64,000 nt of DNA from Branchiostoma floridae (lineage: Eukaryota; Chordata; Leptocardii; Amphioxiformes; Branchiostomatidae): assembly GCF_000003815.2 (NCBI RefSeq), contig NW_023365794.1, forward strand, positions 100,652 to 164,651, read 5' to 3'. Below are positions 26,101-32,100 of the stretch, one piece after another. A program made the position numbers and the translations under genes. Position 1 is the first letter of the stretch. Every line of letters begins with the position of its first letter. The notes under the pieces were generated by a model, which did no database searches, was not told where the DNA came from, and saw only the letters and a list, made by a program, of their open reading frames with translations.

Positions 26101-29100
26101 AAAATTTGAATGACTACTGGCACTTATTTTCTTAACACAGATTTTATTTGCTTTGCTGTATGGTGTCACTCATGGTATACCTCATGTACCGCCTGTTTAC
26201 CCATGTGGAAATCAGATATTTGTTCCGATAGGATACAATTTCAACAGGGATATTGAAGAGGCCTTGGTGGACAAACAAATTGAGGTAAAACATATGAGAG
26301 CTACTGTGTGAAAACTCACAAAAAGTACCACTGCAACTGAGTCACCCTTCTTGATTAATTCCTTTTTTGATCATGAAAGACTGATATCTAATGCTGAAAT
26401 TTTCTTTTACCATCTATTCGCTATATTTGGGATAAAATAGGGTGACCGTCCTCAGAACTCAAGTGGTACAGTTTGTGACAAGCTTTTGGGCTACATGTGG
26501 ATTCTTGTGCTCCATGCAGTATCCTTAAATTTTGTATTATCTACAAGGACTAAAACATCATTCACTTCTACCAAAGTCTATGGTACATTATGCATGGAGC
26601 CCAGAATTCACTCTCACGCTGCTTGTCGTGGATTTGTGAGCACTGGTGTTAACTTGTGACATCTCACTACAACTAAACAGGTGGAGCCTTCAATAAGGGT
26701 ATAGAGGGTGTCTTCGGAGACAAACAGATTGAGGTATTTTTGTTGCAACCTTGTTTGTTTAGCTGAGGTGAACTGTTCCGTCATCCTGTCTAATCATTGT
26801 TGATTTTTGTGTTGTAACCTCTAACTGATTTATAGTGATTGATATGAGCAATGTCAGATGTGATGATGGTAATGATGTCAATGATACCAGTAATACATGA
26901 AGAAGTGCCTGATAGTGTCCAAATTATGTGTGAGGATAGTTCTCTAAAGTCCTTTTGCTAATGAATTAAAACTTTTGTTGTTGTAGCTTTTTTTTTAATT
27001 CCTAATATATGTGCACGCTTCCTTTTTTGTATCCCATTTTTCCCCACATATGATATTCCTTAAGAAGGAAGAGGTGTAAGTTTTTCTCACTAGACTCCTT
27101 CTAAACCCTGAAAGATTGATGTGGATTTTATAAGCTCACTATCACATTGGTACAAGGACATGAAGTGATTCATACGTACAATGTATAATACAATGTATGT
27201 GCTTAAGCTATATTTCTGTGAATTATAGGAATTTACTGTTCTTGTTTTATTTTCTGTGTTTTTGCTGCCTAGGACCTGTGGATCCCTTACTTTAACATCA
27301 CTACAGACGTCTCAGCCTCCAAGATGAGAATCCACACAGATGGTAGGATGGTTTGAATGATGTGTTCAATATCGGTTACAAGTTGAAGTCGACAAAGATT
27401 CTTGAAGTTGCCTTTTGATAGCTAGTACAATCCAAATCCTCCAAGTCATTCTAAAAGTAACTAGAAAATGGTGTTAATCAGAGTCATTCAAAATTTGTGA
27501 TAGGATAAGAATTTTTTTCAAAAATGATGATAAGAATTAAGTTTGTTATGCCCAGTTGTGATTGTTATTGAAATATTCAACAATAAATTGGAAACAAAAT
27601 ACTGGTATATTTCAGTTTACAATTTACAAAAACTTGCCCTTGTTGATATTCCTTTGAGTCATTGCAGTGGCAAAGGTGAAAGAGTGACAGTGCTTACATT
27701 TACATTTACATTTACATTTAACTACCCAAAAAGGCCTTTAAATTATTTTGTAAGTTACTAGTCCCCATCGCCACATGTCATCTATCCAAACTGTGGGACC
27801 ATTTCTTTCTTGCTTTACTTTTCCATGCGTCCTTACAATACCTAACACATCATAGTTTCAACACTTGGCAGTTGGCTTTTCTTACTGTTCTGTCAACATT
27901 CTGTATTGTACACATCTGCATTAATATTAACTGCAGCTGGTAGTCACCAAGATTCAACTCAGCCTTGTTCACCACATACCTCCTTGTCTATCAAGTGCTC
28001 AAAATCAACTTCCAAGGACATTTTAACAGCATTAGGTGGTGGGGAAATTTCATCACCTATTCTGTCATCCGAACTGTCATCTTGAACATGTAACATTGCG
28101 TCTGTTCTTAAACCTATACAAGCTTTGTATTCTGATTTCATCTGCTACAATATAGATAATGACACTCTATAAAGTATAATTATAATGATGAAATTCAGTA
28201 ACCATAGTGAAATGAAATTCAGTAACCATTCAATTCTGTGCTATTCAATATTCGAGTGCTATTCAATATTGTGGAGAGAACAGGCAGTCTAATCTGATGA
28301 TTAACAAAATTAATCTAGATTTTCAGTTGTGGCAAGTAAAAAAAAGGGAAAGCTGCAATAGTATTAGACATTTCAACTGCAATGTGAACAAGTTGATTTT
28401 GAGCACTGGTATATCATGCTGTTGTTTGCTAACATCTTTCATGGGGTTGCCAAGTTTCCAATTGAAAGTTTTTCTTAATTTCTTCTGACCTGTTGCAAGA
28501 CATGGCAGAGATGGGGAAAGGACCAATGGCTGTCATTAGGCTGTTGTGTTTCAAATCAATTCAAAAACAAACCTTGGTCCTGATTGGATAATCTTGATTG
28601 GTCAGTGAGGTGTCTTTACATTTGATTTGTTGATCTTGATTGGTCAGTGAGGTGTCCTCACATTGGGTAACTCCCTTGGCAACCCTGCCTCTCACGTGAC
28701 CAGCTATCGATCTCTCTGGTTTTGTTTTGCCCTCCTAGGTGACGTGTGGCGGTATGTGCGAGCCAGCATGACCTTTCACCCCTACCTTCCTCCCATGTGT
28801 GATACTCGCGATGGCCACTTGCTTGTTGACGGCTGCTACGTGAATAATTTGCCAGGTACTGCCTCGGGACAGCAGTGGTGGGCTGTTCCAATGCAGTCTG
28901 GTGGAGCACAGCAAAACTGACAAATTCTGATGACCAATTTCTGTTTGATGTGACTGCCCTTTGGCATACTTAAGCCTAGACAAAAAATTCAGTTACCTGA
29001 TGAACTCAATCAAAAACCGGCCAACCCTAGTCTTTTCTGAGGGTTGGCCACTCTCAAGGAACAAAATTTTTGATTTGGCATGTGAGTTATGAAAACCTAG

Positions 29101-32100
29101 CTCTCCTTTCTGTCGACACCCTGTCATGTTGACAGCCAAAGTCTTTAAAAAAGAAAACACAGAATCCCTACCCACTGACACTAATTTTTTTCAGTCTTGT
29201 GATAGGAAACACAACATTAATTTTCATATGCCTAAACACTGTTGCTTGAAGGCCTACTAAAATAAGACATACCTCCTGAAGTGCTATTTGCAGATTCCCC
29301 AACAAGACAGTGCTCCATCAGCATTGGAACAGCCCTGTCGACAGCCCAGTAGTTTTGACACAGAGATGTGTGTTATTTTGCCATAGGTTCCTTGTGGCGC
29401 TATGTTCGGGCCAGCATGTCCCTATCGGGGTACCTCCCCCCACTTTGCGATCCCAAAGATGGCCATTTGTTACTGGATGGGGGTTACGTCAACAACCTAC
29501 CAGGTAAGGCATGTAGTATACTGGCAATGTGGAATCTTCCAGGTAGAGATTTGTGCGATGTTCCATATTGTAGGCTGTATAACTATAAGACGTAGACACT
29601 TCTAAAATAATTATTATTCCAAAATTACATTTCAGTCAGCATATATACACAATCCCTGAAATGAGTGTCACTGATGCATGAAAGATAGTGGATGCTATCT
29701 GAAACGTCTGATCGTTTCCAAAATCATATTCAGTTGCTTGATTAATTGCCATTTGGCGTATCTTATTACCTGGATATCAGTCATACATGTAAGTCTAGTA
29801 GTGGTAATATGGCCTCACATACTAAATGGTAGAACATTGCCTTCCTTTCTTTTGTATTTGTTTCTGTCAGTGTTTTTATATAACAGGCTACAGGCATGCA
29901 CTTATCTACAATGCAGTAGCACGATGTGGTAGGGTTGGTGCTAAATCACAAGATCAGGTGATTGGATCCCAGCCTTGAGGTCTAAAGCCTGATATAGATT
30001 TTTACTGTAGTTACACTTCTTTGAATGGAAGACTATCATCTGATAGTTCAGTATTTAGAGATCAACATCAGATTTAAGAAAAAGCCTACTACAGTACCTT
30101 CTTGAAAACACAAGGATCTGCCTCAGGATGTGAAACCTACATGTGTAGTATGAAGCTCCAAGTACAAGACTAGTGTGCTAGGAAGAGATAGTTTCCCGTT
30201 ATACCATTTAGTTGTTGTATTAGTGTGGACATGCCTTTTTTCTCTGTGTGTGATCTACAGCCGATGTCGCTAAGTCCATGGGTGCCAACTTCGTCATAGC
30301 TGTGGATGTCGGTTCGCAGGACGATCGGAACCTGACACATTACGGAGACTACCTGTCCGGCTGGTGGGTCCTGTACAAGAAATGGAACCCCTTCACAGAG
30401 AAGATCAGGGTTAGGAATCTTTCCTCATACATGTACAGTGCTGATACTAGCAAGCCCAATTGTTATGCAATATGCATTAAAAACATACATTGTATTATAT
30501 ATTAGGTGGGCTGCTGACTACTCTCTCTTTGTAGCCAGGGGCTGAATTGTGAGGAGTTTAAGATTGGCAGGGCTAAATTGCAAGGGACTGGAGCAGCTGC
30601 CATTTGGCACTAACTCAGGTGACCTCAGTATGACAGTAATGGCCTCAAGTGTGGCCTTAGGTCTCTAGATTTTGAACCACTCATACCGAGAAGGATCCCT
30701 ACTCTTTTCGATTAGTGTGGTGGGTTCTTTGATATGCTCAAGGTGTGGCTCTCCTCAAACGGGGCCTTAATTTCATTGGACAGCCCTAACTGAAACTAGG
30801 TACTCTTTTCCACCTTAGTGAAGTGATGAAAGTTGTGTTAAGTGGCTTTCCCAAGGGCACAAGATCGGTGTCGTATAATTGACAAATTTGAGCCCAGAAC
30901 TTCTTGGACCATAACCACTGGGCCACAATTATCATGTAGGCTGTCATTCCGTATCTAATCTATGCTATCATTGTCAGAATATCTTCCCTTTTAGACTTCC
31001 AGTATCTGATTTTATCATGGTTAAACCTGTGGCAAATGTATCTTCAGCCAGGCCTGAATTCAGTTGTTACAGATAAAGTATATGTTACATCATAAGCATC
31101 TGTCAAAGATCTCAAAATGACTTATATTATCACATTTTGTATGTTCTTCTGAACGAGTGTTTTGTACCACTTGGACAGGTGCTGGACATGAGTGAGATCC
31201 AGCAGCGCCTGGCCTACGTGTCCTGTATGAAGCAGATGGAGGAAGTCAAGTGTTGTGACTATGTGGAGTATGTCAGACCACCCATTGACAGGTATCCCCA
31301 GCATTGTTTACATGGTCTTACAACAAATAGTTAAGGTGCCAAGTAGTTATCTCACTCTCTCATTATGTTATTGGAGATCATGATGTTAGGGTTAATTTGC
31401 ATACTGTAACATCCATGATGACAATGGAGTGGAATGGATGGCAAATCAGCACCAAAGACATGATGTAGGGTCAACAGTAACCAATCACCTCGAAGAACAC
31501 TGTAGGGTTAAAAGTAACCAATTACCTCCATGGAAATAGCAGGTAACTAATTAGCACCAAGGACATTTTAGGGTCAACATTAACCAATCAGCACCAAGGA
31601 AATATGTTACCAATCAGCAGATAAAAAAGAAAGTTGGGACCAATCAGCAGGAAGAACATTGTAGTGTCAACAGTAACCAATCAGCACCAAGGACATGGAT
31701 ATTGTATTTTGAAGAATATTGTATTTTGAAGGTAAATAAAGAGGCCCATGAAACTCTATGCTAAAAAAAGGAAATTGCTAGGTTTCTTCTTAATCATACC
31801 AGCAAAAGAAATAGCCTTCAGCAGGATAGTTCCATATAAATGTACATGACACATGTAATGTAATGTAGGTAATATTTTCAGAAGTTATTTTGAACAGAAG
31901 TCTTACATAATGTTCATCCCTTGCCCAGGTACAAGACGTTACAGTTTGGTTCCTTTGATGAGATCATGGAGGTGGGGTATGCCCATGCCGTGCCCATCTT
32001 TACTGACTGGCGGCGTGCAGACGAGGTGTTCGGGGTGCGGCCACCTGTGGAGGAGCAGGCCAGGCATCCACTGGTGAGGAGTCTACTGGGCTTTTGTTAG

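Follow-up and report, generated by a model that had tools for sequence, protein, structure and literature searches.

Does a gene that carries two copies of the exon encoding its catalytic aspartate offer two forms of one active site, or does the duplication act on a different part of the enzyme? The question is raised by an NTE (PNPLA6/7-type) gene in a 64,000-nucleotide (nt) stretch of the genome of the lancelet Branchiostoma floridae (assembly GCF_000003815.2, contig NW_023365794.1, positions 100,652 to 164,651 of the forward strand; hereafter the window, whose own numbering is used throughout), in which two neighbouring exons, 36a and 36b, encode alternative versions of the patatin-domain segment that bears the catalytic Asp. 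An earlier interpretation of the window, made from the letters alone (the sequence-only reading), had proposed that they provide two forms of the esterase active site. The analysis presented here suggests, with moderate confidence, that 36a and 36b are mutually exclusive exons that would act as a switch of the lipid portal of an NTE-type lysophospholipase, their joint inclusion probably being discouraged by an RNA stem in the intron that separates them.

Identity of the gene and duplication of the catalytic-Asp exon

The gene (Table 1) is complete, with a reading frame that is open from ATG to TGA and encodes 1417 amino acids in the model with exons 11a, 34b and 36b and without the optional exon 26. 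Exon borders were set by hand on AG/GT splice borders, with a single GC donor after exon 33 and with the end of exon 40 at 32695. Pfam profiles recover NTE_Ploop (219.2 bits), three stretches of cNMP_binding and Patatin in the spliced model, the Patatin score being 107.9 and 105.3 bits with 36b and 104.4 bits with 36a (cut-off 27.7). The combination of a GXSXG serine and a DG aspartate in the patatin domain with an NTE P-loop-like domain and three cNMP-binding domains is that of the NTE/PNPLA6-7 family. A search of the whole assembly (513 Mb, 431 contigs) with a 112-residue query spanning exons 35 to 37 returned four matches at E 0.01, all of them exons of this locus, and neither a paralogue nor a second haplotype was found with this query. 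Since the matches are confined to it, the locus seems to be the sole NTE gene of the assembly.

Exons 36a and 36b lie where the sequence-only reading had placed them, with the equal length (117 nt) and shared phase (1-1) that it had reported, and their borders are canonical AG/GT. Tandem-duplicated exclusive exons are expected to be homologous neighbours that agree in length and phase, and in this gene such agreement is seen both at 36a/36b and at 34a/34b. As had also been recognized, the two copies encode the same segment of the patatin domain in diverged form: 27 of the 38 residues and 74 of 114 bases are identical, and 15 of the 27 common residues are written with differing codons (38 full codons compared). 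A tblastn search with 36a detects 36b at E 7e-18 in the 64-kb window. In a pairwise codon model omega, the ratio of nonsynonymous (dN) to synonymous (dS) change, is near 0 with a dN of 0.187, and omega = 1 is rejected (likelihood-ratio test 40.9, p = 1.6e-10); the model is run without an outgroup and its time parameter stands at the upper bound, so that dS is saturated, can be read as "large" only, and gives no age. Chance can be regarded as excluded as the source of the resemblance, because of the tblastn value and the rejection of omega = 1. The 71% protein identity, retained despite saturated synonymous change, argues that both copies have probably been kept by selection, and by these comparisons the pair is a real, old and selected exon duplication in an NTE gene.

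A scan of the exon peptides against the window found no third copy of exon 36, and also detected the pairs at exons 11 and 34 that are described below; apart from these, it gave matches for exons 7, 12 and 23 that were short (E from 0.003 to 0.05). The splice sites of both copies score normally. Ranked from the weakest among the 44 sites of each kind in the gene, which themselves supplied the matrices with both copies included, the donors of 36a and 36b stand 14th and 43rd, and their acceptors 41st and 34th.

The catalytic Asp is retained by both copies, in line with the earlier claim, and is Asp1165 with either exon in the 1417-residue model. Its earlier placement at about residue 1200 depends on the choice of exons, the number rising to 1192 with 11b and exon 26 and to 1204 when 11a and 11b are both included. 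The nucleophile in the 1417-residue model is Ser1045, which gives a Ser-Asp spacing of 120. In human PNPLA6 the nucleophile is Ser1014 (PMC12631215), and the variants Pro1122Leu, Gly1129Arg and His1130Tyr are tabulated from patients (PMC8395181). The lancelet spacing equals that from human Ser1014 to the position four past His1130, which suggests residue 1134 as the human acid, where PMC12631215 prints Asp1144. With the human patient positions matched in this way, by spacing and not by alignment, the residues corresponding to P1122, G1129 and H1130 are the same in 36a and 36b.

A possible effect of the differences on the lipid portal

There are eleven residue differences between 36a and 36b over the 38 sites. 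Among them are the two contrasts singled out by the sequence-only reading, namely DGC in 36a against DGG in 36b and CDTRDGH against CDPKDGH, both of which are present as described. The crystal structure paper on patatin-17 lists seven residues that line portal 1, including Ala190, Pro191, Ala217 and Val218, and places Phe194 and Asp215 among the residues lining the active-site chamber (PMC4172759). The PDB sequence of patatin-17, which has DGA at the motif, bears out the letters surrounding these residues, and the positions were transferred to the lancelet protein through alignments to PlpD and CapV plus a family alignment. At the portal 1 positions 36b and 36a respectively carry L and F (Ala190), S and H (Pro191), G and C (Ala217), and Y in both (Val218), so that the change from DGG to DGC is one of three changed portal positions. 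Both chamber positions are unchanged, with L at Phe194 and D at Asp215 in either copy.

Of the claim of two active-site forms, the duplication of the catalytic-Asp exon stands, whereas the dyad and the two chamber residues are spared and three of the eleven differences map to portal 1. Because of this distribution the pair may be read as a lipid-entrance switch, and tuning of lipid access would be a better description than an active site in two forms. Under such a mechanism, either exon would supply the full catalytic-Asp segment and hence a complete Ser-Asp dyad, and the differences at the portal mouth (L-S-G and DGG in 36b, F-H-P and DGC in 36a) would alter the entry and exit of lipids, affecting both which lipids pass and at what rate.

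A stem in the intron between the copies

The 36a-36b intron folds more stably than expected (z = -3.51, with none of 100 shuffles as stable), and its two ends are joined by a long helix. In the fold, which was computed on naked RNA, 15 perfect pairs link 28880-28894 with 29321-29335 (mean pair probability 0.98), and the helix continues with 11 pairs between 28899-28909 and 29310-29320 (0.99). This makes the intron an outlier in the gene: the longest Watson-Crick run between the first and last 120 nt is 15 here and 9 in the next best of the 44 introns, a run of 15 was reached in none of 5000 shuffles (the highest was 14, once), and the duplex energy of -69.2 is the lowest of the 44.

In the assembly, the stem's 15-mer GGGCTGTTCCAATGC matches exactly once on each strand, at the two arms themselves, and the reversed control pattern has no match; with uniform bases, about one exact match would be expected by chance. 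Allowing up to two mismatches, no other copy was found in the window. Longer stretches around the arms (105 and 125 nt) returned only self-matches in the assembly, an absence that does not prove rarity, as these searches are blind to copies of the length of an arm and did not report the other arm either. Derivation of the stem from a mobile element was considered and ruled out: the 15-mer is limited to the two arms in the assembly, and these are therefore not the ends of a dispersed element, and both lie outside the dispersed repeat within the intron (Table 1).

Within the final 60 nt of this intron, yTnAy is matched only by the candidate branch point TTGAC, 23 nt from the stem. The path from the 36a donor to this point is about 500 nt along the chain and about 47 nt through the stem, if the stem forms. 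A distance between donor and branch point of less than about 50 nt is taken as too short in a survey of exclusive exons (PMC5740500). In the 11a-11b intron the donor lies 54 nt from the first of two candidate branch points. The stem would thus place two sites at the same end of the helix, the 36a donor at a distance of 24 nt and the candidate branch point of 36b at 23 nt, and a path this short, similar to the 54 nt of the 11a-11b intron, would probably discourage joint inclusion. A role of the stem as an RNA device in exclusive splicing is plausible.

The flanks of the two exons hold little that is left from the duplication, with no similarity longer than 11 nt, the one of 11 nt being inverted. 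An 18-nt perfect inverted repeat (27994-28011 and 28390-28407, 378 nt apart) is present in the intron that precedes 36a. Elsewhere in the gene, the ends of intron 8-9 (10237-10414), which adjoins no duplicated exon, pair more strongly than those of its shuffles.

Weighing the alternatives

Several observations weigh against a portal switch governed by the stem. The enrichment of differences at the portal (three of four sites against 11 of 38) has P = 0.065, which is a weak lead and not significant alone. The alignment between patatin-17 and NTE is remote (1oxw, E 0.011) and ends at profile position 160, before the Asp, and because it stops there the Asp-side positions rest on the motif. The reading frame does not enforce exclusivity, as joint use and joint skipping of the two exons both preserve it. 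In terms of z-score the duplex of intron 8-9 is more extreme than that of the 36a-36b intron (-3.27 against -2.94, with 1 of 200 shuffles in each case). Over 27343-30260 neither arm showed a rival pairing partner, and blocking of the 36a donor or the 36b acceptor by pairing was not supported, the mean pairing of these sites (0.60 and 0.64) not being in the top eight of the 41 introns scored. Finally, the stem could equally favour the joining of 36a to 36b.

One alternative, to which we give a little less than an even chance, is that the stem is a by-product with no part in splicing and that exclusivity would come from splicing factors. It gains from the lack of competing selector pairing, from the ordinary pairing of both splice sites and from the dispersed repeat in the intron. 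Selector pairing was sought with both arms over 27343-30260 in 60-nt windows (266 windows, those overlapping the partner arm left out), and was rejected, as the best other windows reached -29.9 (left arm) and -25.2 (right arm) kcal/mol against -49.7 for the two arms together; with windows elsewhere in the gene, pairing reached -38.7 (left) and -34.5 (right). Splicing-factor words are also somewhat commoner near the pair, with 2.06 GCATG per kb (6 sites) where the gene at large has 1.20 and 1.37 TGTGTG per kb (4 sites) where it has 0.58, and with a smaller excess for the other patterns; the patterns covered were those of Rbfox, PTB, Nova, CELF, Esrp, MBNL and Quaking. Against a by-product stand the position of the arms outside the repeat and the 15-mer without another exact match in the assembly, which is not what the ends of a dispersed element would give.

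An alternative concerning function rather than splicing is that 36a yields a catalytically weak or dead NTE, owing to the Cys after Asp-Gly, with the membrane and cNMP-binding parts kept; this we consider unlikely. Cys at this position is seen in none of 29 aligned patatin rows (G 23, A 5, S 1), a set in which some genes occur twice, rows overlap and one counted row is poorly aligned at the Asp. Eight bacterial genomes and three viral contigs supplied the rows, 31 having been printed and two without Asp at the column dropped; the family scans gave 8 bacterial relatives among 43 candidates, and 3 among 39 in the viral contigs. Among the patatin loci of the lancelet genome itself (L001-L008), L001 and L002 are open frames without a usable Asp motif and the others gave no row. 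A paper on chicken PNPLA genes cites DGG as the consensus motif (PMC2435558), yet patatin-17 has DGA. Loss of activity fits poorly with the retention in 36a of the Asp and the Gly after it, of the N-N-L-P segment and of the residues at the P1122, G1129 and H1130 positions, with an omega near 0, which indicates a constrained fold, and with the small size of Cys.

Somewhat less likely again is the presence of both exons in some transcripts, which would insert 39 residues in frame and probably produce an inactive or scaffold form, with the stem shortening the loop and aiding the joining. Such transcripts would be possible in that the exon length of 117 nt is divisible by three and the model with both exons stays open throughout (1456 amino acids), and in that the intron is of median length for the gene (531 nt) with its ends held by the stem. 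However, a protein in which a core part of the hydrolase fold occurs twice in succession should not, on general grounds, fold, and by analogy, old tandem-duplicated exons are said in surveys of human genes to be used either one or the other (PMC9741552, PMC5740500). That 36a is a relic or a seldom-used exon without function is very improbable: it strays further than 36b from the family pattern at the DG motif and the portal, but the Val that it has ahead of the Asp is the more common choice in the bacterial rows, it shows purifying selection, intact borders and an acceptor outscored by only three of 44, and with synonymous change saturated, an exon without function should by now have a broken frame or motif.

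Other duplicated pairs and features of the gene

Two further exon pairs of the gene are duplicated. Exons 11a and 11b share their phase and 18 of 27 residues, differ in length, and are separated by an intron of 80 nt, the shortest of the 44 (the next has 172 nt). In exons 34a and 34b, which are preceded upstream by the GC donor of exon 33 (25689), 9 of 17 residues are identical, and the use of both or of neither breaks the frame. Pairwise omega is below 1 for both pairs, consistent with purifying selection (p = 0.00026 for 11a/11b and a weak p = 0.035 for 34a/34b). The end-to-end pairing of their introns is not strong (z of 1.38 for the 11 pair and -0.92 for the 34 pair).

Most striking is that, judged by anatomy, joint use would be discouraged by another feature in each of the three pairs. 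A speculative extension, which we hold to be rather doubtful, is that they form three independent exclusive switches, governed by a short intron at exon 11, by frame at exon 34 and, at exon 36, by an RNA stem that makes a 531-nt intron virtually short; with two of the switches in the esterase domain, the gene might yield as many as eight proteins that differ in lipid portal and regulatory parts.

Table 1. Positions of the NTE gene, its duplicated exons and the elements of the 36a-36b intron in the window
Feature	Position	Strand	Remarks
NTE (PNPLA6/7-type) gene	5123..34212	+	45 exons if both members of every duplicated pair are counted
Exon 11a	11091..11171	+	81 nt; by position just past the first cNMP-binding region
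Exon 11b	11252..11368	+	117 nt; ends with 12 additional residues
Exon 34a	26232..26284	+	53 nt; patatin domain
Exon 34b	26681..26733	+	53 nt
Exon 35	27273..27342	+	constant, upstream of the 36 pair
Exon 36a	28739..28855	+	catalytic Asp exon, form F-H-P ... DGC
Intron 36a-36b	28856..29386	+	531 nt
Left stem arm	28880..28909 (28880-28894, 28899-28909)	+	24 intron bases from the 36a donor border
Dispersed repeat in intron 36a-36b	about 29135-29243		at least 39 other matches in the assembly
Right stem arm	29310..29335	+	51 intron bases before exon 36b
Candidate branch point TTGAC	29355..29359	+	its A is 29358, 28 nt from the end of the intron; putative function
Exon 36b	29387..29503	+	catalytic Asp exon, family-typical form L-S-G ... 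DGG
Exon 37	30261..30409	+	constant, downstream of the 36 pair

Other parts of the gene might also be variably spliced. Exon 26 (21192-21236), an in-frame exon of 45 nt, can be omitted from the model and is a possible cassette exon, and five of the six exons from 13 to 18 are multiples of three in length, so that the linker they encode may vary. Exon 12 (12203-12350) encodes a run of ten histidines in the linker. Intron 17-18 contains a perfect TGAG microsatellite (16055-16131), and minisatellites with units of 41 and 47 nt lie upstream of the gene (667-1061 and 1617-1946). On the minus strand, open frames with C2H2-like motifs at 36479-40311 were recognized by eye as a neighbouring zinc-finger gene.

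Relationship to known systems

PNPLA6/NTE, PNPLA7 and the Drosophila protein swiss cheese are characterized by NTE P-loop, cNMP-binding and patatin domains. The lancelet gene resembles them in all three kinds of domain and in the Ser-Asp dyad. The family is of medical interest, NTE being the putative starting point of organophosphate-induced delayed nerve damage (PMC4172759) and variants of PNPLA6 having been found in ataxia and related disorders (PMC8395181). A natural pair of Asp segments that has been under long selection would reveal which positions tolerate change while function is kept, and whether substrate choice is set by portal 1.

The closest parallel in kind is provided by ACSL6 and ACSL1, in which mutually exclusive exons swap the segment at the fatty-acid entrance, with a Phe or a Tyr gate (PMC1543647). 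As at 36a/36b, an exon pair exchanges the lipid entrance of a lipid enzyme, and for ACSL1 a form with neither exon was also found (PMC1543647). The ACSL enzymes belong to another family and their forms were isolated as transcripts, whereas the NTE pair is known from genomic DNA alone and its exon also holds a catalytic residue. A second parallel is coq-2 of C. elegans and other rhodoquinone-making animals, whose equal-length exclusive exons 6a and 6e remodel the substrate tunnel and core, with a switch at two key residues (PMC7434440). It differs in encoding a prenyltransferase, in having exons of 134 nt, the joint use of which shifts the frame, and in that function was shown by exon removal (PMC7434440). 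The principle of exclusive exons that reshape a lipid entrance or tunnel is accordingly known, and its use in the NTE family on an exon with a catalytic residue was not found in print: searches of the open-licence literature returned no published report of a duplicated Asp exon in PNPLA6, PNPLA7 or swiss cheese, and "PNPLA" is absent from the main text of two surveys of human exclusive exons (PMC5740500, PMC9741552).

At the level of splicing, the long intronic pairing beside duplicated exons recalls the docking-site and selector systems (PMC6071210). Unlike in those systems, one stem only lies at the NTE pair, between 36a and 36b, and no competing selectors were found over 27343-30260. The stem, if functional, would represent a simple design for exclusive splicing that dispenses with such competition.

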